The notes under the pieces were generated by a model. The model saw only the letters and a list, made by a program, of their open reading frames with translations, searched no databases and was not told the DNA's origin. 64,000 nucleotides of DNA from Zhongshania sp. R06B22 (GTDB lineage: Bacteria; Pseudomonadota; Gammaproteobacteria; Pseudomonadales; Spongiibacteraceae): NCBI RefSeq assembly GCF_040892595.1, contig NZ_JBFRYB010000001.1, positions 930,001 to 994,000 on the forward strand, written 5' to 3'. The stretch's first letter is position 1. Every line of letters starts with the position of its first letter. This document shows, piece by piece, positions 4,729 through 20,381 of this stretch. A program made the position numbers and the translations under genes.

Positions 4729-5061
4729 ATGGACACTATCGAAGCAATCAAACAGCAAATTTCATCTAACCCCATTATCCTTTATATGAAAGGTTCTCCT
4801 AGCCAACCGCAGTGTGGTTTTTCTGCGCGCACATCCCAGGCCCTAATGGAATGTGGTGAGCGTTTTGCGTTTGTTGACGTTTTGGCTAATCCGGACATTC
4901 GCGCAAAAATGCCAGAATTCGCTAATTGGCCAACGTTTCCACAGTTGTGGGTTGCCGGCGAGTTAGTGGGCGGCTGCGATATTATTTGTGAGATGCATGA
5001 AAGTGGCGAGCTAAAAACATTGGTGCAAGAGACCTCTGCAGCGCAAGCAGCCGCTGAATAA
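4729..5061 (+). CDS. grxD: Monothiol glutaredoxin, Grx4 family
   Basis: A 110-residue protein with the single-cysteine active site CGFS (Cys29), the KGSPSQPQ approach segment, TFPQLWVAGELVGGCDI (cis-Pro and glutathione-binding GG) and a short C-terminal tail. CGFS glutaredoxins bind a [2Fe-2S] cluster with glutathione and transfer it to target proteins, often with BolA partners, in the cytoplasm. The length and all motifs fit the family. The gene stands alone between the HyuB-like gene and a strong terminator. Confidence 0.95.
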   Translation: MDTIEAIKQQISSNPIILYMKGSPSQPQCGFSARTSQALMECGERFAFVDVLANPDIRAKMPEFANWPTFPQLWVAGELVGGCDIICEMHESGELKTLVQETSAAQAAAE

Positions 5062-5078
5062 TATAAGTCTTCGTTTTT

Positions 5079-5113
5079 AAAAAGCCCGGTGGTGTTGCCA
5101 CTGGGTTTTTTTT
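5079..5113 (+). terminator. Intrinsic terminator after grxD
   Basis: CCCGGTGG and CCACTGGG pair (one G-U) around a short loop and are followed by eight T residues. It lies just downstream of grxD and ends that transcript before the Fur-box-like site. Confidence 0.88.
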
Positions 5114-5128
5114 GCGCCGCTTAATCTA

Positions 5129-5147
5129 AATAAGAATGCTTTTCATT
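5129..5147 (+). promoter_or_regulatory. Candidate Fur box ahead of porin operon
   Basis: AATAAGAATGCTTTTCATT matches 16 of 19 positions of the palindrome AATGAGAATGATTCTCATT, a common form of the Fur-binding site. It lies about 110 bases before the porin start, behind the grxD terminator, where a promoter operator would be. fur itself is at 42009. Confidence 0.55.
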
Positions 5148-5256
5148 TAGCTTCGTGTTTGGTAGGATTCCGTCCGCTGTGCGTAATGAGGTGTATGGCT
5201 GAAAAAAACAAAATAAGTGGTTTTTAAAATCACAATGTCGAGTTGGAGAAGTAAAC

Positions 5257-6426
5257 ATGAAGAAAACCGCATTAGCATTGGCCATATGTGGGTTGCCGTT
5301 GGTCGTGAATGCAGCGTCAGCGCCAAGCCAAGAAGAAATGTGGCAGATTATTCAGCAGCAGCAAAAAGAGATTGAGCGTTTAAAGGCAGATCAAAAAGTT
5401 GCAGATAGCAAAATTAACGCCACCGCGGATGCTGTTGAAAAAACAGCGACTGTTGCCAGCTGGGCTAGCCGCACCACGATTGGCGGTTATGGTGAGCACC
5501 ATTTCAATCACTTCAAGAATAAAGACGACCAAGTGGATGCACACCGTTTTGTGATCTATGTTGGCCATCAATTTAGCGACACCGTGCGTTTTTTCTCCGA
5601 AGTAGAGATTGAACACGGTTTCGTTGAAGACACCAGCGATGGCAGTGGCCCGGGCGAGCTTGAAATTGAGCAAGCCTACATCGCGTGGGACTTTACTCAA
5701 GGTCAGACCTTAACCATGGGTCAATTTTTGATCCCGGTCGGTATCATTAATGAAACCCATGAGCCTGATACCTTTTACGGCGTAGAGCGCAATAATGTAG
5801 AAAGCGCCATTATCCCTGCAACATGGTGGGAAACGGGCGCAATGCTGAGTGGCGAAATTTTGCCGGGCTTTAATTACAACCTTGCGGTACATAGCGGTTT
5901 AGCAATTGATCCTACTGGTAATGGCGCTGTGCGCGGCGGTCGCCAAAAGTCCGCTAAAGCAACAGCGGAAGATTTCGCCTATACCGGTCGTTTGGTTTAC
6001 AACGCGATTTCTGGTCTTGAATTGGGCGCCACCTATCAATATCAAGCTGATGTGACACAGGGTGCCGCAGAGGGCGAAGCGACGTTTTATGAATTGCATG
6101 CGCGCTATCAAATTGCGAATTTGACCTTGACGGCCTTAACCGCTGAATGGGATATCGATGGTGCCACGTTTGCTGCCAATGGTAGTGATAAGCAAGAAGG
6201 CAGCTACATTGAGGCGTCTTACAAAATTACGCCAAAGCTCGGTGTGTTTGTTCGTCAAAGCCAATGGGACAACCTTGCAAGCAGCGCAGCCGATACTGAA
6301 ATCGAACAGTTTGATGCCGGTATCAATTATTGGTTAACGCCCACGGTGGTTGTTAAGGCCGACTTTGCCGATCAAGTGAATGCTAAAGGCGATGCGGTTA
6401 ATCTAGGCTTAGGTTGGAGCTTTTAA
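5257..6426 (+). CDS. Outer-membrane porin, OprO/OprP-like
   Basis: A 389-residue protein with a cleaved signal peptide (ends near NAASA), a short coiled coil (QQQQKEIERLKADQK) and a barrel ending in GWSF, the usual outer-membrane C-terminus. Segments such as IGGYGEHHF, FSEVEIEHGF and GQFLIPVGIINETHEP resemble phosphate-selective porin (OprO/OprP) family proteins, though the solute is not evident. An AGTTGGAGAAG ribosome site precedes the ATG. Two inner-membrane/periplasmic genes follow at spacings of 3 bases, forming an operon behind a Fur-like box. That context suggests uptake or handling of an iron-related solute. Confidence 0.82.
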   Translation: MKKTALALAICGLPLVVNAASAPSQEEMWQIIQQQQKEIERLKADQKVADSKINATADAVEKTATVASWASRTTIGGYGEHHFNHFKNKDDQVDAHRFVIYVGHQFSDTVRFFSEVEIEHGFVEDTSDGSGPGELEIEQAYIAWDFTQGQTLTMGQFLIPVGIINETHEPDTFYGVERNNVESAIIPATWWETGAMLSGEILPGFNYNLAVHSGLAIDPTGNGAVRGGRQKSAKATAEDFAYTGRLVYNAISGLELGATYQYQADVTQGAAEGEATFYELHARYQIANLTLTALTAEWDIDGATFAANGSDKQEGSYIEASYKITPKLGVFVRQSQWDNLASSAADTEIEQFDAGINYWLTPTVVVKADFADQVNAKGDAVNLGLGWSF

Positions 6427-6429
6427 TAA

Positions 6430-7035
6430 GTGGCTTCTTGCTGCATTAAACCAGGTCACCGCAGGTATAAGCCTGTGGTGATCTTGGTGTTTCTAGTGTC
6501 TGTTATGCTCCCAAATCTTGTGTTTGCTGGTAGCGGAAGCAGTGACGTGGCAGGGCAGTATCTTACGGTCGAAGAATTTTTGCAGCTGTCATTTGAGGGT
6601 CGTGCGGAACCAAGTCCGACGGTTTATTGGTTGCCGGCTGATGTAAAAGCGCGCATCAAATTGCTAAATGGTCGAGACTTTCCCCTGCTGCGTGTGCGTT
6701 ATTGGTCTGTTAACGATGATACCGCCTGGATATTGGAAGAAATTGGTAAGGAGATGCCAATTACCATTGGCGTAGTGATTGATGGCCAATCCATGGCTGT
6801 TAAGCGCGTAGAAATTTTAGCCTTCAGAGAAAGTCGGGGGTGGGAGGTTCGCCATCCCTTTTTTACACGTCAATTTGATAATGTCGCTTTAAATAAAGAT
6901 GACCGTCTTAGTGGCCACATCGATGGAATTACCGGTGCAACCTTGTCTGTGCGCGCTGTAAAGCATGTGGCACAAGTTGCACTTATCTTAGCAAGTGCGG
7001 TACAACGTGCGGCTGACATTGCTGCTTCGGAATAA
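6430..7035 (+). CDS. Periplasmic FMN-binding domain protein
   Basis: A 201-residue protein starting at GTG three bases after the porin stop, so probably translationally coupled. A hydrophobic segment at about residues 17-33 (VVILVFLVSVMLPNLVF) exports or anchors it. The C-terminal motif GITGATLS matches the S/T-GAT-S/T flavinylation site of FMN-binding domains (as in NqrC/RnfG), where FMN can be attached covalently to the threonine by ApbE. The role inferred is electron carriage in the periplasm, together with the adjoining PepSY membrane protein. No ApbE gene is in the window. Confidence 0.78.
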   Translation: MASCCIKPGHRRYKPVVILVFLVSVMLPNLVFAGSGSSDVAGQYLTVEEFLQLSFEGRAEPSPTVYWLPADVKARIKLLNGRDFPLLRVRYWSVNDDTAWILEEIGKEMPITIGVVIDGQSMAVKRVEILAFRESRGWEVRHPFFTRQFDNVALNKDDRLSGHIDGITGATLSVRAVKHVAQVALILASAVQRAADIAASE

Positions 7036-7038
7036 GTT

Positions 7039-7788
7039 GTGAGCCCATTTCGCTATTTTAGAATGTTGTTACTGAGGTGGCATCGCCGTCTTGGCGTTGT
7101 GCTTTTGGTATTCATTGTGATGCTGGTCGTGACTGGTATTGCGATAAATCACAGCGCATCGTGGGGATTAGATAAATCCTTTGTGCAACAAACGTGGCTG
7201 TTAAATTACTACGGTATTTCCGAACCAGAGCTTCGCAGTTATCGCGATCAAAATGATTGGCTGGCTCAATCTGGCGCAAGTTTGTACTTAAACGAAAATC
7301 CAATTGGTTCTTGCGATGGGCTGCTGTTAGGCGCAGTTAAGCAAGGTGAAGACTGGCTGGTTTTGTGCGAAGGCCGACTTCAAGTATTTAATCTTCACGG
7401 CGCCCGCCTTGATGATATTAGTGAATCTTTAGGTCTGCCGCCGGCGGTAAGCGCGATAGCGGCGAACAATAACAATATATACCTGCGAACAAGCACGGCG
7501 ACTATTCAGTTTGATCCCGCCCTTTTAACATTTACGTCGCTCGAAAATCCAATGCCGGAGGCTAAGTGGGCAGCCCAGCTCGCGCCGCCGCAGACATTGC
7601 GCGAGGTCTGGTTGAGCGCACATCGCGGCAACGGCGTGAACTGGGAACGGGTTTTATTAGATTTGCACAGTGGCAGATTGTTTGGTCCTGTCGGCGTGAT
7701 CCTAACTGATATTGCAGCGGTATTATTGCTGTTGCTAGCGCTGAGCGGTGTCTGGGTGTGGGTGAGTAAGCCAGGTCGCTGGCGATAA
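7039..7788 (+). CDS. PepSY-associated membrane protein
   Basis: A 249-residue protein starting at GTG three bases after the FMN-binding gene. It has an N-terminal RWHRRLGVVLLVFIVMLVV membrane helix typical of PepSY-TM proteins, a roughly 170-residue extracytoplasmic part, a PepSY-like LSAHRGNG...VLLDLHSGRLFG stretch, and a second helix near the C-terminus (AVLLLLLALSGVWVWV). PepSY-TM proteins occur with siderophore receptors and are thought to reduce ferric complexes. With the FMN-binding neighbour and the Fur-like box this suggests a small ferric-reductase module. Its last 35 codons are copied at 16567-16672. Confidence 0.8.
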   Translation: MSPFRYFRMLLLRWHRRLGVVLLVFIVMLVVTGIAINHSASWGLDKSFVQQTWLLNYYGISEPELRSYRDQNDWLAQSGASLYLNENPIGSCDGLLLGAVKQGEDWLVLCEGRLQVFNLHGARLDDISESLGLPPAVSAIAANNNNIYLRTSTATIQFDPALLTFTSLENPMPEAKWAAQLAPPQTLREVWLSAHRGNGVNWERVLLDLHSGRLFGPVGVILTDIAAVLLLLLALSGVWVWVSKPGRWR

Positions 7789-7849
7789 TTGACCGCGGGT
7801 GTCGTGAACCTGGATTTTTTAGTCAATGGTTTACGACTAGCCCCGTGCT
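7683..7849 (+). repeat. Direct repeat, left copy (PepSY 3' end and flank)
   Basis: These 167 bases match 16567-16733 in the same orientation with 8 mismatches and no gaps (about 95% identity). The copy covers the last 35 codons of the PepSY gene and 61 bases beyond its stop codon. The two copies bracket an 8.7-kb accessory block. Confidence 0.95.
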
Positions 7850-7973
7850 CTGATGCCCCTTAAATAGTTGGTGCTGTTACGATGGAACAAAATCTATAGG
7901 GATGAAAGAGTTCTTCGGAGGGCTCTAAGACTTAATAAACTTGTATTGGAAAAAATTTCACCTATTTCTAAAT

Positions 7974-8585
7974 CTACGGCGCTTCATAGTTGGAGCCAAA
8001 TACGGTTGCTAATGCTGACTCGACCAGCATATCAGTGATTGCTGCATGATCAATTCCTGGTTTTTTAATGATCTGCATTCTCAGAGTTACAGCCAATATT
8101 GAGGTAAACACCACGAATACCGCTGATGGTAAATTAGTATTGGGGAGTTCGGAGTGGTGTTGTAAAGCATAGTTTCGAAATACATCAGTAAAATGACCTT
8201 CAATTTTTTCTGCGGCAACGCTGAGTCGTCGTTCAGCGTCTGAGCTTAGCAAGGCGCGTATAAGAAGTGGCTGTGAGCCAACGTAAAAAATAATGCTGGA
8301 GATGAGTACGCGGCTAAAGTCTCTAAATCCGCTGAGTATTTCACTGCCGGCCACCAAATCAAGTTGTTCTTTGATTTCTTCGGCTAATGTTAGTGAGACC
8401 GCGTCTAATAGTTGTTCTTTATTCTCGAAATACTGGTACATAGTGCCGACACTCACGCCGGTGCGATTGGCTACGGCCGATGTATTGAAGCCCTCAAGGC
8501 CATTCTCATTTAAGTGCTCGCGGGCCGCTTGCACGATATCTCTAACAATAAGTCTCGAGCGCTGTTGTTTTGGTTGGCGGCGCAT
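7974..8585 (-). CDS. TetR-family transcriptional regulator
   Basis: A 203-residue protein with an N-terminal helix-turn-helix (TSAVANRTGVSVGTMYQYFENK) preceded by a basic RRQPKQQRSR stretch, and a helical ligand-binding C-terminal domain. TetR proteins usually repress a neighbouring divergent gene until they bind a small ligand. Here the divergent neighbour is an acyl-CoA synthetase pseudogene, with the monooxygenase cluster beyond it. The likely ligand is therefore a substrate or CoA ester of that pathway (inference). Inverted TTACTCAG / CTGAGTAA elements lie in the 200-base divergent gap at 8621-8628 and 8700-8707 and could be part of the control region, but their wide spacing is unusual for one operator. 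Confidence 0.9.
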   Translation of the reverse strand: MRRQPKQQRSRLIVRDIVQAAREHLNENGLEGFNTSAVANRTGVSVGTMYQYFENKEQLLDAVSLTLAEEIKEQLDLVAGSEILSGFRDFSRVLISSIIFYVGSQPLLIRALLSSDAERRLSVAAEKIEGHFTDVFRNYALQHHSELPNTNLPSAVFVVFTSILAVTLRMQIIKKPGIDHAAITDMLVESALATVFGSNYEAP

Positions 8586-8786
8586 AAATGTGAATGCTCC
8601 CTGCTGATAGTTGAATTATTTTACTCAGACTGCCTCTGCTCATAGTACAACATCATTGATATATATAGAGAAATTTATGATCGCTAAGGCGAATATTAGC
8701 TGAGTAATTCATTGAGATAGAATTTGCAGCTTATAATTTTGCATCTGCGCCGCCATGGAGGTCAATCGTTTAGGGACAGGCGCAAT

Positions 8787-10328
8787 ATGACTGCACACAT
8801 CCCTCAATTAATATATCGAGCTGCGCAACTTCACTTAGATTGTCCTGCGCTTGAACTCCAAGGGCTAATAAGAACGTGGCAGCAGACCGGGTGTGTGCCG
8901 GTGGACTCCATAAAATCGGCGTAGCAGCGAATCAGAAGGTGGCTATTTTAGCCCTAAATAGCGCGTCGTATTTTGAATGCTTGTTTGCCGTTCCTGCAAC
9001 CGGCGCACGGATCGTGCCGTTTATATACGTTGGGCAGTTGCCGAAATTGAATTTGCTATAAATGACTCTGAGAGTCAGACCTTGATTTTTGATCATACAT
9101 TTTTGCCTGTGGTAGAAAAGATCCGCCAAGGTGGGGCAGGTATAGCTAATTATGTGTTTTTGGATGATGGAGGAGGCTGCCCGTCTTGGGCTATCTCCAT
9201 GGAGAATTTACTCGGCTCATCAAAACCATACCTCGATTTAACTAGTAGTGATGAGAGCCTCGCCGGAATTTTCTATACCGGGGGTACAACTGGTCTTCCG
9301 AAGGGGGGTATGTTGCAACAAGCCGCTTTAACAAGCAGCGCCCTTTGCGTTGTTGCTGCTGTTGATGCTAATAGCGCTAGCGTTACGCTTCACGCTCCAC
9401 CTATGTTCCATCTTGCAGATCTATTATCGTGTTTTGCGTATACGATGCTCGGTGCCAAACATGTGAAAGTCCCAATGTTTGAACCTCAGTCTGTGCTTAC
9501 CTGCCATAAGCAGTGCCGGGTAACAGACTTGCTTTTAGTGCCCACAATGATTCAGTTACTCATGGATAACTCAGCCTTCAGAGAGCATGGTTTCTGTAAG
9601 GTCAATAATCTGCTTTATCGCGCTCCCCAATGCCAGAGGAGCTCTTATTTCGGATTTTAGGGCAGCACCCAAACGTAAGTTTAATCCAAGCGTTTAGTCA
9701 AACAGAGATGGCGCCAGTTATCAGTCTTCTTGTTGGAACAGACCACTCTCTGACGGCTGATAAAAACACTTACTACGGTCGGCTAGCCGCGCTGTACCTT
9801 CGGTCGGTGTTGTAATTTAAAGCGAGAACGTAGCTCTGCTTGAAGCTGGTCAAATCGGTGAAGTATCTGCTCGGGTCCTTGGGATTATGGCGGGCTATTG
9901 GCGTAGCTCCTCGGTTACGAAAGAGACCATCATAGATGGATGCTTGCATACCGGGGACGCCGCTTACATTGACGGGGATGGTACTTATTCATTGTTGATT
10001 GGATTAAGTGATGATTTTTACGGGTGGTGAAAATGTCTACTCGGTAGTAGTTTGAAAATGTAATGCCGATAATGCTAGGCGTCCAGCAAGTGGCAGTAAT
10101 CGGTATTCCAGACTCCCTGTGGGGTGAGCGTGTACACGCCATCGTCGTGCTTGGTTCTAGCGCAAACTACACATCATCAGATCTTCTCGATCATTGTAAA
10201 AAACATATCGCAAGTTACAAATGTCCGAAATCCGTGGAATTTACCGATAAATCACTTCCTCTGTCCGGGCCGGTAAGTTTTTAAAGCATAAGTTACGTAA
10301 CGTTTATATCGTTGGCGAGAAAGTTTGA
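8787..10328 (+). pseudogene. Acyl-CoA synthetase (AMP-forming), many frameshifts
   Basis: Translated piecewise, the stretch reads as a FadD-type AMP-forming ligase: N-terminus MTAHIPQLIYRAAQLHLDCP, then KVAILALNSASYFECLFAVP, the P-loop FYTGGTTGLPKG, the FSQTEMAP motif, GYWRSS, GCLHTGDAAYIDGDG, FTGGENVYS and the final GKFLKHKLRN. These pieces lie in different frames. Changes are needed near 8880, 9030, 9620, 9800, 10005, 10045 and 10275, so at least seven indels break it. No long working enzyme can be made. It would have activated an acid to its CoA ester, perhaps a product of the neighbouring monooxygenase. Neighbouring genes in the block are intact, which argues against sequencing error. Confidence 0.88.
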
Positions 10329-10529
10329 CATTGTCGATGATTTTTCAAAACGCGAATAAATGTTGAGTGGAGCGCCGAAACGCATTGATGGATAACAATT
10401 ATATGCGGTAATTATAAATTTAACTTTTTGAATTTAAAGGTTTTTTATAGTTTAGGAAATGGCGAGTTTTTGGTGAGGAAAAAACTGAGTAGTCTGTATC
10501 TTCGATAATAACAAATTAGAAAGGTGTCT

Positions 10530-12086
10530 GTGTTGTTGAATGTTGAATCACTGGATAGTGGAGTAACTCATCTGGAACGGGATCCGATTGTGATCATCGG
10601 CGCTGGGTTTGGTGGGCTAGCAATGGCCAAACGTTTAATTGACCAAGGTATTGAAGACTTTCTTGTTTTTGAACGAGCCGATGAAGTCGGTGGTACCTGG
10701 CGTGATAACAATTATCCTGGTTGTGCATGTGATGTAGCCAGTAATCTGTACTCCTTTTCATTCGCGAAAAATCCTGATTGGACGCGCACCTATGGCAAGC
10801 AAAAGGAGATATTTGAATATCTTCGCGATGTCACAGAGAAGTTAAATCTACGTCAAAAAATTCGTTTTGGGCATGAGCTGCTGAGTGCCCGATGGGTTGA
10901 AGAGCGACTGGCGTGGTGTATTGAAACCCCCGTTGGTCACTTCTATGCTCGAGCGTTGATAACTGCTACCGGTCCTTTCGGAAGTCCAGTAATCCCAGTG
11001 TTGGAAGGACAAGACTTATTTGGTGGGAGCTACTTTCACAGCTTTAATTGGGATCACGATTACGACTTTAGCGGCAAGCGAGTGGCCGTTATTGGTACGG
11101 GCGCGACAGCCGCGCAGATTGTTCCGGAACTGCAAAAGAATGCAAAAAAAGTCAATGTCTTTCAGCGCACGCCAACGTGGATACTACCCCGGCTCGATTC
11201 CGAAACAAGCGCATTCAAGCGTGGAATATACAGGCGTATTCCGGTATTACAAAAGCTGGTTAGGGGCGTTTGGTATTCAGCCTATGAGGGTATTGTTGGC
11301 CTTCCCCAGTATGTTCATCCCATTTTTCTTGGTGGCTTTGAGGCGCTCGGGCGTTGGCATATTCGCCGCAATATTGATTGCTATGAATTACGATCGAAAC
11401 TAACACCGGACTTTCGATTTAATTGTAAGCGGACTCTACTGAGTAATGCTTACTACTCATCGCTAAACGAACCAAATGTTGAGCTAATTACTGACGGCGT
11501 GGCCCGATTCTATGAAGACTGTATTGAGACAAATGAGGGCGATAAAATCGATGCTGATGTGGTGATATATGCAACTGGATTTGAAGTGCCCAACGATCAA
11601 TTTAAACGCATATTTGGCTGTGATGGAAAAAGTCTGTCGTCGGTATTTAAAGACGATATGAGCGGTGCTTACCTTGGTACCTCAGTAAGTCGTTTCCCAA
11701 ATATGTTCACGATGCTTGGCCCATTCTCGGCAGCAGGAAATCAATCAGCCATTTATATGTTGGAGTCTCAGGCTGAATACATAGCTATGGTGATGGCGGA
11801 GCTTGATAGAGACGAGATTGCCAGCATTGATGTGAAGCCTGCAGCACAGGCTCGATTTGTTGCTGATGTTCATAAAAAGAGCCAGCGAGTGAGTTGGGTT
11901 GCCGGAGGATGCAAGAGTTATTACCAGGATCAGAATGGCCAAAACCTGGGCTTATGGCCAGACTGGAGCTTCCGATATCGGCGGGCTTTGTCGTCATTTA
12001 GGCGTCAAGATTTTAATTGTGTGTACCGGAGTAATACGAAAGTAGCGCCTACCCAATACACACAGTCATCAAGTTCTGTGTGCTAG
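10530..12086 (+). CDS. Flavin monooxygenase, Baeyer-Villiger type
   Basis: A 518-residue flavoprotein with an N-terminal FAD site GAGFGG, the Baeyer-Villiger fingerprint FGGSYFHSFNWD (pattern FxGxxxHxxxWD, near residue 163), and the NADPH site GTGATA just after it. Enzymes with this full set insert oxygen next to a ketone to give an ester or lactone, using NADPH and O2 in the cytoplasm. The GTG at 10530 is preferred over the in-frame GTG at 10524 because AGAAAGG at 10518-10524 is then correctly spaced. Genes for a dehydrogenase and a metal-dependent hydrolase-like protein follow closely, as in ketone or sterol-side-chain clusters. The substrate is unknown. Confidence 0.9.
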   Translation: MLLNVESLDSGVTHLERDPIVIIGAGFGGLAMAKRLIDQGIEDFLVFERADEVGGTWRDNNYPGCACDVASNLYSFSFAKNPDWTRTYGKQKEIFEYLRDVTEKLNLRQKIRFGHELLSARWVEERLAWCIETPVGHFYARALITATGPFGSPVIPVLEGQDLFGGSYFHSFNWDHDYDFSGKRVAVIGTGATAAQIVPELQKNAKKVNVFQRTPTWILPRLDSETSAFKRGIYRRIPVLQKLVRGVWYSAYEGIVGLPQYVHPIFLGGFEALGRWHIRRNIDCYELRSKLTPDFRFNCKRTLLSNAYYSSLNEPNVELITDGVARFYEDCIETNEGDKIDADVVIYATGFEVPNDQFKRIFGCDGKSLSSVFKDDMSGAYLGTSVSRFPNMFTMLGPFSAAGNQSAIYMLESQAEYIAMVMAELDRDEIASIDVKPAAQARFVADVHKKSQRVSWVAGGCKSYYQDQNGQNLGLWPDWSFRYRRALSSFRRQDFNCVYRSNTKVAPTQYTQSSSSVC

Positions 12087-12106
12087 AGACAGGGGAGGTT
12101 TGATTT

Positions 12107-12997
12107 ATGTATCGACTTCAAAACAAGACGGTTTTCATTACCGGGGCCGCACGAGGACTAGGCGCTTCAATAGCACGTAGGCTTCATCAGCTAGGTGCTA
12201 ATGTAGCGTTAATTGGTTTAGAGCTGGAGTATATGGAAGCGACTTGCGCCGATCTGGGAAGCTGCTGTATTGCCATCGAGGCTGATGTCACTGATGCCCA
12301 ATCCTTAGTTAATGCTGCCGAGGAGGTCAAACGCCGTTTAGGGCCGATTGATATCGCAGTAATGAACGCGGGAATACTGCATATCGGCAATTTCGATTGC
12401 GCTGATAGCGCAGGATTCGACCGAACTCTCACCGTAAATTTGCATGGCGTAATAAATAGCATCAGAGCTGTTTTACCACAGATCGTCAGCCAGCGTGGAT
12501 ACATTCTTAATGTCGCTTCAGTGGCAGCGGTAATAAACGGCCCCTTGGTTGGTGCCTACGCTGTAGCGAAAGCTGGGGTGGATGCATTGAGTAATAGTTT
12601 GCGTATTGAGCTCGCTCGCAAGGGCGTTTCAGTTGGGTGTGCGTATTTCGGTGCAATTGATACTGATCTTGTTCATGGATCAAGACAACATCCCGCCATG
12701 GCAAAGATGGAGGCGTCCTTGCCGAATTTTCTCGGTGCTGAGATTAGTGTCCATAAAGCTGTAGCGGTGATCGAAAATGCCATAACCAAGCGCTCGAGCC
12801 GAGTTTGGGCGCCAAACTGGATCTCTCTGATTTATGCATTTCGTGGTGTGTTGCAACCTATTGTGGAGTGGCGATATTCGGGTGGTAAGGATTTAGCTGA
12901 GGCATTAGATATCGCCGATAGTGAAGAGCAAAAAGGTGACCGTCATCAAAATTTTAAGCTTGGTGAGGCGGTAAATATATTGGTAGATAAGGCATAG
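12107..12997 (+). CDS. Short-chain dehydrogenase/reductase
   Basis: A 296-residue SDR with the cofactor motif TGAARGLG (residues 12-19), NAG at the end of strand 4, a catalytic Ser in NVASVAA and the YAVAK catalytic Tyr-Lys pair near residue 151. It should oxidise a hydroxyl to a ketone or the reverse with NAD(P). It starts 20 bases after the Baeyer-Villiger monooxygenase stop, with GGGGAGG as ribosome site. One natural reading is that it supplies the ketone that the monooxygenase attacks. The C-terminal extension past residue 250 is longer than in minimal SDRs and carries the hydrophobic ISLIYAFRGVLQPIVEW, a possible membrane contact. Confidence 0.9.
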   Translation: MYRLQNKTVFITGAARGLGASIARRLHQLGANVALIGLELEYMEATCADLGSCCIAIEADVTDAQSLVNAAEEVKRRLGPIDIAVMNAGILHIGNFDCADSAGFDRTLTVNLHGVINSIRAVLPQIVSQRGYILNVASVAAVINGPLVGAYAVAKAGVDALSNSLRIELARKGVSVGCAYFGAIDTDLVHGSRQHPAMAKMEASLPNFLGAEISVHKAVAVIENAITKRSSRVWAPNWISLIYAFRGVLQPIVEWRYSGGKDLAEALDIADSEEQKGDRHQNFKLGEAVNILVDKA

Positions 12998-13016
12998 TAT
13001 TTTGATGGAGAGCGAT

Positions 13017-13865
13017 ATGACTGTACATAAAATAAAACCTCGCAGAATGGATTTTCAACTTGTTGGAGACGTCGATAGAGACTGGCTGGCAAATAATCCT
13101 TTCCTTACGCATTTTTTTACAGGTTTTGCTGCGCAATTCCCAGAGGGGGAGCGCTTTATGATTGATGCGGTTAAGCACTACCGCAATCAACTTGACAAAC
13201 ACTCTGCACTTAGCGATGAGGTCTCAGGGTTTATCGGCCAGGAAGCTCATCACGCGAATGCCCATGATCAACTGAATGACTTTCTGGCCGCACAAGGTGC
13301 GCCCACCGCGGCAATTGATAAGCAGACGAAATGGGCTATCAATGTTATTCGGAAAATTTTCGGGCCAAAACAGCAGTTGGCGATGACCGCCGGTTTGGAG
13401 CATTTTACGTCGATGTTTGGTACTGCGGTACTACGCCATCCAGAGATCGCGGAGTCAGTGCATCTGAAGATTCGTCCAATGTTTGTTTGGCATGCAATCG
13501 AAGAAGTTGAACATAACACCGTTGCTTACGACGTATATCAAAAACTTGATGGCAGCTACGCGCGTCGAATTACTATGTATCTTGTTTCAACTCTACTACT
13601 TATTAGCTTCATATTGCTTTCGCAATTGCGTCTGACCATTAATGATCCGCGTGCCTTGGCACCTTCATCTTTATGGGGAGGTTTAAAGTGGATGTTTGGG
13701 TTTGGTAAGAATGCTGGGTATATCAGGCGTATGACGCCGGAATTTCTGCAATATTTCAAGCCTAGCTTTCATCCCGCAAGTGATGAAAAGCAAGTGATGC
13801 TGGAAACCTGGCATAGTGAGATGGCGTCTTTGGAAGAAAATTTTTTGTTTAAGCGTACTGCATAA
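13017..13865 (+). CDS. Metal-dependent hydrolase-like protein (COG3687)
   Basis: A 282-residue protein of the PF10118/COG3687 family, judged from its helical character and metal-ligand pattern: QEAHHANAHDQLN and EHFTSMF early, then WHAIEEVEHNTVAYDVY. This E/H spacing resembles ferritin-like di-iron proteins. A hydrophobic helix (YLVSTLLLISFILL) lies near residue 190. The database name says hydrolase, but no reaction is well established. The ATG at 13017 is preferred to TTG 13002 because GGAGAG lies 5 to 10 bases ahead. Members often sit with flavin monooxygenases and SDRs, as here. Confidence 0.8.
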   Translation: MTVHKIKPRRMDFQLVGDVDRDWLANNPFLTHFFTGFAAQFPEGERFMIDAVKHYRNQLDKHSALSDEVSGFIGQEAHHANAHDQLNDFLAAQGAPTAAIDKQTKWAINVIRKIFGPKQQLAMTAGLEHFTSMFGTAVLRHPEIAESVHLKIRPMFVWHAIEEVEHNTVAYDVYQKLDGSYARRITMYLVSTLLLISFILLSQLRLTINDPRALAPSSLWGGLKWMFGFGKNAGYIRRMTPEFLQYFKPSFHPASDEKQVMLETWHSEMASLEENFLFKRTA

Positions 13866-13901
13866 TACGCGCTTAAAAATAATAACTACTTAAATGTGAA
13901 T

Positions 13902-16442
13902 ATGATGAATTCTAAATTAGAAAATCTAAAATCTTTTCTACCCCTAGCATTAATTTCAATCCTCAATTCCCAGCAAGCGCTGTCAGCGGGGATGCTTGAA
14001 GAGGTCGTGGTTACGGCACAGCATCGCAGTGAAAGCATGGGGGATGTGCCGGTATCGGTAAGCGCGGTATCGGGTGACAAACTGTTTGAGGCGGGTATCA
14101 CAAAATTAGAGGACCTCGCCGCGTATGTTCCCAATCTTAAAATGGCGGAAGGTGGACTTGGCACATTAATCTTCATTCGCGGGATTGGCTCAGGGGAGAA
14201 CCAAGGCTTTGAGCAGTCAGTTGGCACCTACGTTGATGGTGTATATTACGGTCGCGCGCAGCTTGCCAGAGCGCCGTTTCTGGATTTGGCGCAGGTCGAA
14301 GTGCTAAGAGGGCCACAAAATATACTGTACGGTAAAAACAGTGTCGGTGGTGCTATTTCCGTTCGTACAGCTAGCCCGGGTCAGGATAGTGAATTGCTAG
14401 CTTCTTTGACCGTTGATCCTGAATATAACGAATATACAACAGACCTCGTTGTTTCGGGACCAGTAAGCGATAGCTTTGGGCTACGTTTTGCGGTAAGAGG
14501 CAGGCAGTCGGATGGTTATATGTTTAATCAAATTACAAATGAGCCCGAGCCACAAAGAGATGAGCTTACAACAAGAATTAAGGGCGTATGGGATGTTAAT
14601 GACAACACTACACTGACGGTCAAGTTTGAACACGGTATTTTTGATGTAGTGGGGAGGCAGTTCGAGGTGATATCCGATGAACCGTCGCAGTCGGACATTT
14701 TTCTCTTTACCGGCAGAACTTATGGTGAAATTGTTAGTGATACTAATGTAGGCCTACCGATTGGAAATACCACTTACGGCTTAGCACTTGATGAGCATCC
14801 TTCCGTGCGTGACCACTCTCCGGACTATAGAACATCTCGCCAAGAAGATTACAGCAATAACAAAACATACAATGTTACTGGTCAGTTAGATTGGGGCGGG
14901 GCTGATGGAGGTTCATATAATCTTATTTTTGCCCATATGATGTACAAGTATGATGAGCTTTGCGACTGTGATTACACTGGTGCCGATCTTCTTAAAGCCG
15001 AATTCAATGAAGAATATCAACAAACCAGTTTAGAGTTTCGATGGTTATCTGATTTGGGGGGTAAGTGGGAATATATTAGCGGCGCATACGCTCAATATAG
15101 TGAGGTGGACTTTAATGATAGCGTTATTGTCCCTAGTGATTTAGCTCCTCAGCTAATAAATGCTGCTGATATACTCGAATTAGGGGGTCGAGGTGATATT
15201 GACCCTGGTCTTTCCAATCTACTAGACCCAAGAGAAATTCTCGGGGTGGGGGATGCAGGCAACCAATTGGTAGGGTTTTCCGCGCCTAGAACTTTCCTCT
15301 CTGAATCCATTATTGCCTCTGCCTTTCTACAGGCGACTTGGGTCATGAGCGATTACTCACGGCTCATTTTTGGTGGACGATATACCTGGGAGTCAAAGAT
15401 GGGGGCTCGTAGATTTGATTTTGCCGGTCCAGATGGAAGTATTCTGCCTATTGGCGAGATTGATACCGTCGCAGCGATTAGCTTCGCGGGCGAGCGACAC
15501 GATTTAACTGGCGACCGCACAGAGGTGCAATTTGCGCCGTCATTAAAGTACCAATACTACCCTAGCGATGAGGTTATGGTGTACGCCAGCTGGGCCCGCG
15601 GTTTTAAATCTGGTGGTTATGACGCTAGATCGAACTCGAGCCCAGATCCTGGCTTAACGCCACTTAATCCGAATGTATTCGGTTGTACTGATGGCGGTGT
15701 TTTAGATGGCTGTAACCAAATATCGCTAGCCGGTAGCTTTGAGTATGACCGGGAAGCAGCCGATAGCATCGAACTTGGTAGTAAATCTAGCTTCCTTGGT
15801 GGCGCTGCAGAGCTAAATATGGCGTTGTTTTATACTAATTTTCGTGACTTACAAGTCTCTATTTTTGATGGCACCCTCGGATTCAATGTTGGCAATGCAG
15901 CGAGTGCAATATCCTATGGTTTGGAGTTGGACGGGCGGATAGCGCTAAGTAGTCACTGGCTCCTTGCTGCCGGTATGTCGATAATGTCATTTGAGTATGA
16001 AGATCATAAAAGTGGGACATGTATTCAGGGGCAAGCACCAGATGTTGAAGGTTCACCTAACTGTGATTACTCCGGAAAGACGGGGCAGTTTGTCGCCGAC
16101 TACTCAGGCAATATCACGCTTGGATATGAATCTGAGTTAACCGAAAACTTACTGTTCAGAGGTAATATCGACGTAATATTCAGTGGCTCTTATAATCCGT
16201 CACCGAATCTTGATCCGCGGGTTGAACAAGACGCATACATTGCGCTTAATGGCCGGCTGAGCGTAGCGACAATCGACAATATGTGGGATCTGGCACTGGT
16301 CGGTAAGAACCTGGCTGACGAGCGCATCTATCTATATGCTAACGATACCCCATTGGTGAATACCATTACTGAGGGCATCTCACATATTGCCGTAGTCGGT
16401 CCACGTCGTAGCGTTAGTATGCAAGCGACCTACAGGTTCTAG
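13902..16442 (+). CDS. TonB-dependent receptor of the monooxygenase block
   Basis: An 846-residue protein with a signal peptide (cleavage near ALSAG), a TonB-box-like EEVVVTAQ, plug motifs LIFIRGIGSGENQG and VEVLRGPQNILYGKNSVGG, and a barrel ending in QATYRF. It follows the hydrolase-like gene by 36 bases on the same strand and so probably serves the same pathway, importing its bulky hydrophobic substrate (inference). An in-frame GTG at 13896 is an alternative start; neither has a good ribosome site. Base use here is visibly more AT-rich than in the core genes, which fits acquired DNA. Confidence 0.92.
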   Translation: MMNSKLENLKSFLPLALISILNSQQALSAGMLEEVVVTAQHRSESMGDVPVSVSAVSGDKLFEAGITKLEDLAAYVPNLKMAEGGLGTLIFIRGIGSGENQGFEQSVGTYVDGVYYGRAQLARAPFLDLAQVEVLRGPQNILYGKNSVGGAISVRTASPGQDSELLASLTVDPEYNEYTTDLVVSGPVSDSFGLRFAVRGRQSDGYMFNQITNEPEPQRDELTTRIKGVWDVNDNTTLTVKFEHGIFDVVGRQFEVISDEPSQSDIFLFTGRTYGEIVSDTNVGLPIGNTTYGLALDEHPSVRDHSPDYRTSRQEDYSNNKTYNVTGQLDWGGADGGSYNLIFAHMMYKYDELCDCDYTGADLLKAEFNEEYQQTSLEFRWLSDLGGKWEYISGAYAQYSEVDFNDSVIVPSDLAPQLINAADILELGGRGDIDPGLSNLLDPREILGVGDAGNQLVGFSAPRTFLSESIIASAFLQATWVMSDYSRLIFGGRYTWESKMGARRFDFAGPDGSILPIGEIDTVAAISFAGERHDLTGDRTEVQFAPSLKYQYYPSDEVMVYASWARGFKSGGYDARSNSSPDPGLTPLNPNVFGCTDGGVLDGCNQISLAGSFEYDREAADSIELGSKSSFLGGAAELNMALFYTNFRDLQVSIFDGTLGFNVGNAASAISYGLELDGRIALSSHWLLAAGMSIMSFEYEDHKSGTCIQGQAPDVEGSPNCDYSGKTGQFVADYSGNITLGYESELTENLLFRGNIDVIFSGSYNPSPNLDPRVEQDAYIALNGRLSVATIDNMWDLALVGKNLADERIYLYANDTPLVNTITEGISHIAVVGPRRSVSMQATYRF

Positions 16443-16455
16443 ACATGCGGATCTT

Positions 16456-16566
16456 ATGGAAGATATAGCGCCATTCATCATGCCTTTTGTGGTGGTATTT
16501 GTAGACTGGGCGACAAATGTTGTTGGACTGCAAATGATGTTTTATCCCGTAAGGTGGCGGGGAGTG
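16456..16566 (+). pseudogene. Truncated 5' end resembling a DUF445 protein
   Basis: From the ATG at 16456, 37 residues read PFIMPFVVVFVDWATNVVG and then LQMMFYPVRWRGVW. The pattern D/Y-W-x-TN-x-x-x-L-x-MMFYP is like the start of DUF445 membrane proteins. The reading is cut abruptly where the right copy of the direct repeat begins at 16567, and the following codons fit no family. I read this as a gene cut by the rearrangement that joined the block to the repeat. The family call is tentative. Confidence 0.5.
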
Positions 16567-16733
16567 TGGTCCTGCCGGTGTGATCCTAACCGATATTGCA
16601 GCGGTATTATTGCTGTTGCTAGCGCTGAGCGGCGTCTGGGTGTGGGTGAGTAAGCCGGGTCGCTGGCGATAATTGACCGCGGGTGTCGTGAACCTGGATT
16701 TTATAGTCAATGGTTTACGGCTAGCGCCGTGCT
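16567..16733 (+). repeat. Direct repeat, right copy (PepSY 3' remnant)
   Basis: This matches 7683-7849 at 159 of 167 positions, without gaps. Bases up to 16672 encode the last 35 residues of the PepSY protein, including the second membrane helix and stop codon, but no start. Of five differences inside coding sequence, four are synonymous and one changes Val to Ala. The 30 bases beyond 16733 lead directly to the DUF4442 gene, which was probably the original neighbour of PepSY. Confidence 0.93.
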
Positions 16734-16763
16734 AGTGTTCCCTCACTATTTAGAGGGCCGACC

Positions 16764-17222
16764 ATGAATCCGACATTAAAACTTTGGCGCAAACTTTCCG
16801 CCTATCCCGCCGGCAAGCAAATATTCTCTAAAGGGGTCTGCCTTAAAGCACCTTACTTCGCTACGATTAAACCGGTTTTTGAAGAGCTGGAAACTGGCTA
16901 CGCCGTGGTGAGAATTAAAGAGCGGCGCTCATTACACAATCATATTCGGAGCGTTCACGCGATTGCCATGTGCAATTTGGCTGAGGTTGCCGCTGGTGTT
17001 GTTAGCGAGGCCTCAATGCCCTCGGGTATGCGTTGGATTCCGGCAGGCATGACGGTGCGCTATCTGGGTTCAGCAAAAGGCGTACTTCGCGGCTATGCAA
17101 CAATGCGAGAAATTGTCCCCGGTGAGAAAGGCATCGTCCCCGTTAAAGTTGAAGTCAAAAATGCGCTTGGCACTGTAGTTTTTGATGCAGAAATATCCAT
17201 GCATATTTCGCCTAAAAAATAA
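16764..17222 (+). CDS. DUF4442 hotdog-fold protein
   Basis: A 152-residue protein with the layout of PF14539 (DUF4442), a hotdog-fold relative of acyl-CoA thioesterases: an N-terminal LWRKLSAYPAGKQIFS helix, RRSLHNHIRSVHAIAMCNLAE in the region that carries the active site in thioesterases (shown in part), and the strand-rich VRYLGSAKGVLRGYA. It may hydrolyse or bind acyl-thioesters, but the activity of this branch is unproven. It is transcribed alone and followed by a hairpin. Confidence 0.78.
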   Translation: MNPTLKLWRKLSAYPAGKQIFSKGVCLKAPYFATIKPVFEELETGYAVVRIKERRSLHNHIRSVHAIAMCNLAEVAAGVVSEASMPSGMRWIPAGMTVRYLGSAKGVLRGYATMREIVPGEKGIVPVKVEVKNALGTVVFDAEISMHISPKK

Positions 17223-17264
17223 TCGCCGCAGTCTCCCTGATAAATAATGCGGTGCTCACGGTCT

Positions 17265-17291
17265 CGCGGGGCGGTGATGCCGCCGCGTTTT
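17265..17291 (+). terminator. Possible terminator after DUF4442 gene
   Basis: CGCGG and CCGCG arms with additional GC pairing inside (GGCGG / GCCGCC) are followed by TTTT. The stem is imperfect, so the call is moderate. The rest of the 216-base gap shows only a strong TAAGGAGG ribosome site before the pirin gene. Confidence 0.5.
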
Positions 17292-17438
17292 AAATCTCAT
17301 CTCATTTCAGTGTCGCTCTGCTCACCCTTGGCTTATGTTCGTCCTTAAAAAAAGCGATACTCTAGGCTTTACTCAAGCTTAGGGTTTGCCCGCGCTTTCC
17401 GTTTCGGCGGAACTTGCCGCGATGTTAAGGAGGACAAT

Positions 17439-18143
17439 ATGCACTACTTCAGATCAGCAGGGCAGCGCGGCCATGCGAGTTTTGGCTGGCTAGACAGTCA
17501 TCATAGCTTTTCCTTTGGTAGTTACTACGATCCCGAGCATATGGGCGTGTCTGTGCTGCGGGTGATTAATGATGATACCGTGGTCGAGGGCGCTGGCTTT
17601 GATACCCATGGGCATCGCGACATGGAGATTATCTCCTATGTCCTAGAGGGTAGTGTCGCCCATGTTGATAGCATGGGCCACCGACGCACTGTTTCCTCTG
17701 GCGAGGTTCAGCGCATGAGTGCCGGTAGCGGTGTTACTCATTCTGAGTTCAATGCATCGGCGACGGAGAAATTACGTTTCTTGCAGATATGGCTGCGGCC
17801 TAATGTTAAGGGTATAAAACCTGAGTATGAGCAGGCGCGCATACCACAAAGTAAGACCTTAACGCTTTTGGTAAGCCACGATGGTCGCGACGGCTCCTTA
17901 ATGATGCATCAAGATGCTTCGATATATCGCCTGCGTTTGCAGCAGAATGAAGGCTCGCCAATATTGTTGAGTGAGGGGCGGGTTGGGTATTTACATGTCG
18001 TGTCTGGCGGCGCCGAACTCGATGATAGCGTGTTATCGGCCGGTGATGGTCTCGGCGTTTACCAAGCAAGAGAGCTTGAGATTATAGCCAAGAGTGATAA
18101 CTTTGAGGCACTGTGGTTTGACCTGCCGCCAGAGGAAAAATAG
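17439..18143 (+). CDS. Pirin-family bicupin
   Basis: A 234-residue pirin (YhaK/YhhW-like) with the N-terminal cupin metal ligands in FDTHGHRDMEIISYVLEG and HSEFN, and SAGSGVTHSE between the cupin motifs. Some members oxidise quercetin with a bound metal and others act as redox sensors, so the role here is open. A very good ribosome site (TAAGGAGG) precedes the ATG. It stands alone, ahead of a nitroreductase gene on the same strand; both are common in oxidative-stress settings. Confidence 0.9.
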   Translation: MHYFRSAGQRGHASFGWLDSHHSFSFGSYYDPEHMGVSVLRVINDDTVVEGAGFDTHGHRDMEIISYVLEGSVAHVDSMGHRRTVSSGEVQRMSAGSGVTHSEFNASATEKLRFLQIWLRPNVKGIKPEYEQARIPQSKTLTLLVSHDGRDGSLMMHQDASIYRLRLQQNEGSPILLSEGRVGYLHVVSGGAELDDSVLSAGDGLGVYQARELEIIAKSDNFEALWFDLPPEEK

Positions 18144-18240
18144 TAATAATAAGGGTTTATCGCCTGAGAATAACTTCTCTGGCGCTGTGAAATAAAGCAG
18201 TAAGAGTGAAACTATTTTTACTTAATTGAGGAGTTGATGT

Positions 18241-18825
18241 ATGTCTCATCCACCGTTAGGTCGCGACCCGAAAGAGGGTGTATCCGCACTATTTTATGAA
18301 CGCTGGTCGCCGCGCGCATTTGCCAACGCGGCCCTAGATGACGCTGCGGTGGCCCGCTTGATCGATGCTGCTCGCTGGTCCCCATCCTGTTTTAATGCTC
18401 AGCCCTGGCGCTTTTATACCGCCAATGCGAGCAGCAATGCAGACCGTTTTGGCGAATTCCTTAATTTACTATTGGAAGGCAATCAGTCCTGGGCGAAAGA
18501 CGCCTCTGTTCTTGGCTTTCTTGTTGGCAAAAAACACTTTGAACATAACGGCAAGCCCAATGCGAGTTATGCACTAGATTGCGGTGCCGCGTGGATGGCG
18601 ATGACCTTGCAAGCGCGCCAAGAAGGTTTATATACCCACGGTATGGCGGGTATAAAACACGCTGACATTTTGGAACACCTTGGCTTAGATGCCGAGCAAT
18701 ATGAAGCGGTTATGGGCTTTGCGATAGGCAAAAAAGGCGAAGCTTCCCAGCTTGACGAAGGCATGCAAGACAAAGAATTTCCATCGCCGCGTAAGCCTTT
18801 AGATGAAATTTGGCTAGACAAATAA
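18241..18825 (+). CDS. Nitroreductase-family protein
   Basis: A 194-residue flavoenzyme of the nitroreductase fold: RWSPRAFAN and DAARWSPSCFNAQPWRF near the N-terminus bind FMN phosphate and set the dimer interface, and GLYTHGMAGI lies in the central region. Such enzymes reduce nitro groups, quinones or related compounds with NAD(P)H. It follows the pirin gene by 97 bases, with GAGGAG just ahead of the start. Its natural substrate cannot be told from sequence. Confidence 0.9.
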   Translation: MSHPPLGRDPKEGVSALFYERWSPRAFANAALDDAAVARLIDAARWSPSCFNAQPWRFYTANASSNADRFGEFLNLLLEGNQSWAKDASVLGFLVGKKHFEHNGKPNASYALDCGAAWMAMTLQARQEGLYTHGMAGIKHADILEHLGLDAEQYEAVMGFAIGKKGEASQLDEGMQDKEFPSPRKPLDEIWLDK

Positions 18826-18935
18826 AAGTCGATTTAGAGAGTTTGCGACTTCAAATAGTCGGGCATCTAGACTGATGCTCGATTCTCCTCGCGCTGGTGT
18901 TCTGAATTATATTTGTTAGGTGTCCGCTAAGGTAT

Positions 18936-20381
18936 TTAACCTTGTAAAGGCTGAGCCAGAATCCAAAGACCAGCGCCGGTAAAAATTACCATCAGTATAA
19001 GCATGGGCAATTGACTAATACTCGCCTGTCTTTGGTTTGGAAAACTGCGCAGTGCTTCGGCGTGAGCCAAATAAACACTGGCAACGTGACCAATTAAAAT
19101 CAGCCAGACCTGACTATTCCAAATCAAACCCATGTCAGGAAGGATGGGCAGCCTGCCGCTAATAGCCGTGCCAAATAAATCCCAACCCCAGCCAAAGGGG
19201 TCTGAGAATAAACCCCGAATCTTCACCCCTTGGCTTAGCACCAGCGTGTAGTAATGCGTAATGTGGTAAACCAAGGCAATCGGCAGCAGGCTATACCCAA
19301 AACGCAGCGATAATTCGGTCACGCTTAGATCGCTTCGCGTTAGGCGTTTCCCTAGCCATAAAAAGAATAAAAACAAGCTCAAATAAATAAAAGGTGATAG
19401 CAGCAAACACAGCGTCTCAAAGCCGATATACCAGGGGCGCAGGGTAATGTAAGCGTGCAGTGGGTGTTGGCCGAGTAAGGGCTCGATAATGTTTAGCGGA
19501 TCTCGCCAGAAAATATTAAACCACAAACTGGTTTCACGGAGGCCGTCATAGGCGGTAGACGACAGCATAAATAATAAAAAGATTAGCAGGCTGCGGTGCT
19601 CTATTCGCTCATGTAGTAAGCCACTGAACGGGAAGCGCAGGGTAATTTCAAATCGATTTTCGGCCGTAGTTTGATAGTGAAGGGGTGACATTTTGGCGAT
19701 AAGCCTAAACATCACCGAGAATAACTCGCCATAGTGAAACCACGCCTTGCTGCCGACCAAATACACCGCCAGCATATTAATTGCGCTGTAAGTGATTAAA
19801 ATCATGGATAGAGAAAACGGTCGCGTATTGCCAAACAGCTCAAGAGTAATAAACCCCATATATAAAATAACGGCTGGCCAGTAAGCAAATTGGGCGGGGT
19901 AGGTGTAGCGGCCACGGCTGAAATTTTTGGAGGTGGAGCAGACCACTTTCCAGGGATTGAGGTAGTCATACCAGTTGCCAAAAATGGCGCTGAGGTAGCT
20001 GGCACCCAAGGCAAAGCTAATCCAGAAAAAAGTCATATTAAAATTGCGATAAGGGTCTTGATTGCCAATCAGGCCGCTAATAATGGCGAGGCAAAAACAC
20101 AATAGTAGACTGGCTTTCATGATGCTTGCCAGCCTAAGTCTGCGGGCAATTTCCCTTAGGCGGGGGCTGCCAATTGTAATTTGTCTGGAGGCTCGATTTG
20201 CGTGTTCTGCGCTGTAGAAAAAAACCAGAACTAAAAAAGACAAAATAAGCGCCGCCATGGCCCCGTAGATATACATCCAGTAGGGCATGGGTAGTTTATA
20301 GGGCTCGCCGAATGAGTGCGCAAAGCAGTTGTTCGATAGCGCGAGGGTGGCGAATAAGACGAGGTGAAATTTACTCCGCAT
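18936..20381 (-). CDS. Polytopic membrane protein, unknown function
   Basis: A 481-residue protein with a signal-like start (ends at CFAHSFGEPYKLPMPYWMYI) and roughly 10-12 membrane helices spread over its length. Histidines cluster in or beside helices (YHITHYYTLVLSQG), suggesting a metal or cofactor site. The HSFG-x5-LPMPYW start, a His just after the cleavage site then an LPxPxW run, resembles membrane proteins annotated fenitrothion hydrolase in some genomes, but I cannot test this. The gene overlaps the stop codon of the cupredoxin-like gene by one base (TGATG), so the two are translationally coupled. No function is proposed beyond work with that operon. Confidence 0.7.
   Translation of the reverse strand: MRSKFHLVLFATLALSNNCFAHSFGEPYKLPMPYWMYIYGAMAALILSFLVLVFFYSAEHANRASRQITIGSPRLREIARRLRLASIMKASLLLCFCLAIISGLIGNQDPYRNFNMTFFWISFALGASYLSAIFGNWYDYLNPWKVVCSTSKNFSRGRYTYPAQFAYWPAVILYMGFITLELFGNTRPFSLSMILITYSAINMLAVYLVGSKAWFHYGELFSVMFRLIAKMSPLHYQTTAENRFEITLRFPFSGLLHERIEHRSLLIFLLFMLSSTAYDGLRETSLWFNIFWRDPLNIIEPLLGQHPLHAYITLRPWYIGFETLCLLLSPFIYLSLFLFFLWLGKRLTRSDLSVTELSLRFGYSLLPIALVYHITHYYTLVLSQGVKIRGLFSDPFGWGWDLFGTAISGRLPILPDMGLIWNSQVWLILIGHVASVYLAHAEALRSFPNQRQASISQLPMLILMVIFTGAGLWILAQPLQG

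Follow-up and report, generated by a model that had tools for sequence, protein, structure and literature searches.

A fragment of a catabolic gene cluster between direct repeats of a PepSY gene 3′ end in Zhongshania sp. R06B22

The window analysed here, a 64-kb stretch of DNA from the marine bacterium Zhongshania sp. R06B22, lies inside the 3.5-Mb contig of a genome of 3.86 Mb in 7 contigs (G000). Its forward strand carries an intact gene for a PepSY_TM protein of 249 amino acids (7039–7788; PF03929, E = 2.6e-16), which has orthologs in seven other genomes of the genus. The 3′ end of this gene is contained in the left copy of a direct repeat (7683–7849), made up of the last 106 bases of the reading frame, stop codon included, and the 61 bp that follow. 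The right copy (16567–16733) is a fragment of the same 3′ end and runs into the ancestral upstream region of a DUF4442 gene (16764–17222, forward strand; PF14539, E = 1e-46), which is the ancestral right neighbour of the PepSY gene and is found beside it in relatives. A porin, an FMN-binding protein that is weakly RnfG-like and the PepSY_TM protein are encoded together at 5257–7788, an arrangement seen also in the seven other genus genomes that have this PepSY gene and in a genome of another genus (G019); this group is perhaps an envelope electron-transfer unit.

The stretch between the two copies is 8717 bp long (7850–16566). It opens with an A+T-rich segment of 38% G+C (7850–7963), and no donor DNA for this left junction was found, a search of 21 family genomes giving no match beyond chance outside the window genome (none better than E = 0.24). 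A TetR-type regulator is encoded next, on the reverse strand (7974–8585; PF00440, E = 9.5e-14), and is followed on the forward strand by an AMP-binding acyl-CoA ligase pseudogene (8787–10269), recovered by tblastn as six pieces that are spread over three frames and interrupted by stops; the longest piece matches PF00501. Further along the forward strand are genes for a flavin-binding monooxygenase (FMO; 10524–12086; PF00743, E = 8.1e-21), a short-chain dehydrogenase (SDR; 12107–12997; PF00106, E = 2.6e-45, with NF004526 above its cut-off), a PF10118 protein (13002–13865; E = 6.1e-78) and a TonB-dependent receptor (13896–16442; PF00593 and PF07715). The Pfam scan thus returns the gene content given by an earlier sequence-only reading of this DNA, which had listed regulator, pseudogene, monooxygenase, dehydrogenase, COG3687-type and TonB genes; COG3687 was the label used there, and the Pfam name for PF10118 is Metal_hydrol. 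A gene absent from that list follows the TonB gene and leads up to the right repeat: the start of a DUF445 gene (16456–16566, forward strand), truncated after about 37–39 codons where the repeat begins.

No integrase or transposase was found among the six block reading frames scanned with Pfam; the other block reading frames of at least 80 amino acids overlap these six genes or the repeats. No inverted repeats of at least 30 bp occur in 5000–20000, and no tRNA or tmRNA edge lies near the block, the one tRNA and one tmRNA found in the window being far away. The earlier observation that integrase, transposase and tRNA edge are missing is borne out within this scope. With neither transposase nor inverted repeats in these searches, and with a duplication of 167 bp, the block does not have the make-up of a transposon. 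It has that of a genomic islet, with an empty site in relatives, a patchy distribution with a different place elsewhere, and a deviating, if modest, G+C content. The latter is 45.9% in the block versus 50.1–50.5% in the flanks, and the third-codon G+C of the block genes (0.42–0.44) overlaps that of one of six flanking genes (0.42–0.53).

Alignment of the two repeat copies confirms that they are in the same orientation and extend over 167 bp with 8 mismatches and no gaps (95% identity), as the sequence-only reading had stated. A repeat finder extends the pair to 180 bp at 93% (7670–7849 and 16554–16733); the outer 13 bp of this extension are identical at 8 of 13 positions, and the bases on the right side are part of another gene. 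The pair is the sole one reported in the window among repeats of at least 40 bp (seed 14), and a whole-genome search with the repeat gives two matches, the second with E = 2.9e-72, which rules out a chance repeat. The copies still have stretches of 41 and 45 bp over which they are identical. The start of the repeat is poorly identical, with mismatches at 7691, 7695 and 7707, and five of the eight mismatches fall within its outer 56 bp, an end clustering that is not significant (P = 0.08). The 61 bp downstream of the PepSY gene form a strong hairpin in both copies (7786–7850 and 16670–16734, z of −4.2 and −2.0), which is less clear in the three relatives that were folded (z of −0.7 to −1.3). 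The left insert junction (7849) is located at the base of this hairpin.

The genus comparison covered 18 Zhongshania genomes, the window genome and 17 others. The PepSY gene is present in seven of the 17, with 42–86% amino-acid identity: Zhongshania sp. BJYM1 (G005), Z. aquimaris CAU 1632 (G008), Z. antarctica DSM 25701 (G002), the metagenome-assembled genomes G003 (84% complete, 7% contaminated) and G015, and the genomes G009 and G010. The remaining 10 contain PepSY matches of at most 31% or none. In all seven holders the DUF4442 gene comes directly after the PepSY gene, at a spacing of 94–123 bp, and in G019 it does so after 120 bp; none of these eight empty-site genomes has an island at the PepSY/DUF4442 site. 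When the window flanks are joined without 7850–16733, 1339 of 1416 bases align with G005, the nearest relative, gap-free and at 84% identity (83% for the left repeat copy), and the joined window has the same PepSY-to-DUF4442 spacing as G005, 94 bp. The gap-free alignment and the equal spacing indicate a clean insertion, in which the target was doubled and not damaged. An assembly error that joined unrelated contigs has nothing found in its favour and is hardly credible here, given that the copies differ at 8 sites, that the site is in the interior of the 3.5-Mb contig and that both flanks are colinear with those of relatives.

The sequence-only reading had called for a comparison with related genomes to find an allele lacking 7850–16733, and it took a block kept by every close relative as the outcome that would speak against it; the empty allele is what was found, in all seven other genus genomes with the PepSY gene. 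Its suggestion that recombination between the copies would put PepSY back next to DUF4442 also agrees with the G005 alignment, as such an event would give exactly the empty arrangement. An ancestral block lost in the relatives is ruled out, because G010 has the block at another location and genomes with the PepSY gene as a rule show the empty site. In this Zhongshania genome the block is an insertion specific to its lineage, and a tidy case of a known type of event.

Among 57 genomes searched, its own included, a match to the whole block was found, besides G000, in G010 alone, where the two sequences are colinear over 7964–16565 at 74% nucleotide identity. The block is present in 2 of the 18 genus genomes, G000 included, at different locations. 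Matches to the PF10118 protein at E ≤ 1e-90 are likewise limited to G000 and G010, two of 390 genomes of the order. The five proteins whose genes are open in the window, the TetR regulator (87%), FMO (86%), SDR, PF10118 protein and TonB receptor (83%), are 82–87% identical to their G010 counterparts at the amino-acid level. Unlike the window copy, that of G010 has an intact acyl-CoA ligase (PF00501), is located away from PepSY–DUF4442 and makes up only the beginning of a CoA-linked catabolic cluster that extends further (contig C1, 588052–605189). This cluster continues with genes for a complete DUF445 protein, YtfJ, a thiolase, a HADH/ECH protein (3-hydroxyacyl-CoA dehydrogenase/enoyl-CoA hydratase), an acyl-CoA dehydrogenase, an ECH and a CoA-transferase. 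The truncated DUF445 piece of the window shares 82% amino-acid identity with residues 1–39 of the 406-residue G010 protein, and nucleotide homology stops at 16565, within DUF445, where the right repeat begins. The cluster in the window, cut in DUF445 exactly at the right repeat, is therefore a fragment and no complete element.

As to the second half of the G010 cluster, the region 600001–606300 of G010 finds in G000 matches of 65–72% nucleotide identity only, and the G010 DUF445 protein finds, besides the truncated piece, only 25–41% amino-acid identity. The PF10118 protein was not found in collections of genome contigs and viral contigs searched with short peptide patterns, which can miss relatives; among plasmids it matches 79 records, all below 60% identity, with the 15 matches listed at 33–34%. 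Over the whole genome, G000 has 12 matches to the PF10118 protein, and the 17 other genus genomes have 0–6.

The genes present suggest a function for the cluster. Judged from the protein families, it looks like a system for the regulated uptake and CoA-linked oxidation of a hydrophobic ketone-like or alicyclic compound, a reading that draws on the TonB receptor, the flavin monooxygenase, the SDR and the CoA ligase, together with the β-oxidation genes in G010. The best NCBIfam match of the monooxygenase, far below the cut-off, is pentalenolactone D synthase, a Baeyer-Villiger enzyme. Since its ligase is broken and its second half is missing, the window copy could at most work jointly with other genes of the cell, such as the related genes at the G010-like matches elsewhere in G000.

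Around the G010 cluster lie genes of mobile elements: a tyrosine integrase just to its right (606319–607554), a DDE transposase, two ISL3 transposases and a large integrase-domain protein. The cluster lies between the two ISL3 transposase genes, which have the same orientation, share 1.3 kb of DNA that is 93% alike and stand about 36 kb apart (C1, 576247–613129). Each is followed by a very large open reading frame, at 577888–583263, a piece of which matches Phage_integrase (6e-8), and at 613586–619033, whose match is below the cut-off (6.4e-4). The G010 region is possibly a composite island or a large-recombinase island. No direct repeats of at least 17 bp were found around the G010 integrase and the ends of the cluster.

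This integrase gene bears on the possibility that the window block is the remnant of an integrase-driven island, which had its attachment site at the PepSY 3′ end, supplied a replacement 3′ end and was later shortened by deletion. The closest look-alike of the block is such an element, prophage e14 in the icd gene of E. coli, where, according to PMC11148124, 165 bp of the gene 3′ end are duplicated with 12 changes. As in e14, the gene 3′ end is directly duplicated around the insert and the target gene stays intact, the PepSY reading frame keeping its full 249 codons. Unlike e14, a prophage that carries its integrase gene, the block has no integrase among its six scanned reading frames, and one of its ends is inside a truncated gene. 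As the right junction falls within a gene of an operon, the deletion would need to have ended precisely at the core. Identity is poor where the repeat begins, with the three mismatches given above, and the eight empty-site genomes show no island at this position. An origin of this kind is considered unlikely.

We put at roughly 0.75 the probability that the lineage of this one species received, between PepSY and DUF4442, an 8.7-kb (approximate size) fragment of a catabolic cluster that spreads horizontally, containing the TetR regulator, CoA ligase, flavin monooxygenase, SDR, PF10118 protein, TonB receptor and the start of DUF445. On the genomes compared, no base of the target was lost and 167 bp of it were doubled. 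As to the route, an illegitimate, microhomology-guided capture with local re-copying has about an even chance of being correct. It is favoured because a gene is cut at microhomology, no PepSY-bearing donor was seen and the two repeat copies look as if both derive from one local sequence. Just outside the right junction, PepSY agrees in register with the right side of the window at 8 of 13 positions, a score reached by 0.7% of sampled PepSY/DUF445 pairs, and with the G010 DUF445 gene at 9 of 13, reached by 0.1% of sampled pairs; this microhomology is imperfect and was examined after the fact. The left junction has no counterpart to it, with identity at 4 of 13 positions. Ku (PF02735) was detected in none of the 18 genus genomes and, among 14 control genomes, only in B. 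subtilis, which leaves no place for Ku-dependent end joining.

In such a capture, the chromosome would have been opened near the base of the hairpin downstream of PepSY (7849), where the incoming DNA would have been joined by one of its ends. The other incoming end, inside DUF445, would have annealed through microhomology to the unbroken sister at a point 167 bp upstream (near 7682), from where copying of the sister would have run onward into DUF4442. Afterwards, as the pattern of changes suggests, the left copy may have been kept by selection as the 3′ end of PepSY, the right copy may have drifted and the ligase decayed. Rare RecA-dependent loss of the block should still be possible via the repeats.

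A capture that needs no integrase, transposase, Ku or flanking homology, and in which a break at a gene-end hairpin followed by microhomology-guided re-copying from the sister leaves long target duplications on either side of a clean insert, is proposed only tentatively as a route in its own right. If it is real, such scars would be a general and overlooked way for gene clusters to enter chromosomes, and the new genes would be reversible. The scar can be searched for, as a target duplication of 100–200 bp with one end of the insert inside a truncated gene. The present locus offers a base-exact view of a piece of a catabolic cluster entering a chromosome, where one can read the empty site in relatives, the inserted DNA, the doubled target and, elsewhere, a fuller version of the cluster.

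The geometry is accounted for equally well by a single crossover of the Campbell type, in which a circle that carried the block together with a 167-bp piece of the PepSY 3′ end from a closely related strain integrated at the homologous target. Such an event predicts a clean insert with flanking direct repeats and no loss, as observed, and the copies still have runs of identity in common; in E. coli, circular DNA integrated by single crossing-over gave target duplications of 109–950 bp in the sequenced clones described in PMC3240628. However, this route works only if the incoming DNA is homologous to the target, and nothing found points to such homology. The circle would have needed two prior illegitimate joins, of DUF445 to PepSY and of the PepSY 3′ end to 7850. 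There is no PepSY sequence beside the G010 cluster, the PepSY protein has no match in plasmid records at E ≤ 1e-5, and a separate PepSY 3′ fragment (E ≤ 0.001) occurs, among the 57 genomes, in G000 only. Single-crossover integration is a possible, less likely explanation. The sequence-only reading had proposed insertion or excision by homologous recombination at a gene end; insertion is upheld by the empty allele in relatives, and the homologous route is one of two or three candidates, with a G010 cluster that has no adjoining PepSY and a right end that cuts DUF445 at microhomology.

Homology-facilitated illegitimate recombination, with one homologous and one illegitimate end, shares with the window block the microhomology at an illegitimate junction. 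It was reported in three naturally competent species with 3–10 bp of microhomology at most illegitimate junctions, and usually removes a stretch of recipient DNA comparable in size to the insert, according to PMC3240628. The window site, in contrast, lost no base, and no homologous anchor lies beside the G010 cluster, which makes this origin very improbable.

Illegitimate capture with re-copying, the preferred route, would derive both repeat copies from one local sequence, and the differences between them can be compared with relatives. The copies differ from each other at 5 of 103 coding bases and each differs from G005 at 15–16. With G005 as the yardstick, the derived states are those of the left copy at 7707 and 7773, both silent, and at 7842, and those of the right copy at 7691, which changes valine to alanine and is the sole amino-acid change, and at 7749 and 7819; positions 7695 and 7836 are unpolarised. 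Farther relatives conflict at 7707, 7749, 7773 and 7842: the base of the left copy is found in G015 at 7707 and 7773 and in G003 at 7842, and that of the right copy in G008 at 7749. The branch of the right copy (0.044) is longer than that of the left copy (0.012), as expected of a copy free of selection, in a tree of 224 columns that joins the copies as sisters with weak support (67/39). An origin of one copy from a distant donor is not favoured, as the copies are nearest each other, within the weak support of this tree.

Between the window and G010, dN is 0.07–0.11 for the TetR regulator, FMO (0.08) and SDR, and dS of the same genes is 1.2–2.2, near saturation. Together with the open reading frames and the 82–87% protein identity, these values mean that the open block genes have been under selection somewhere since the split from G010, not necessarily in the window genome.
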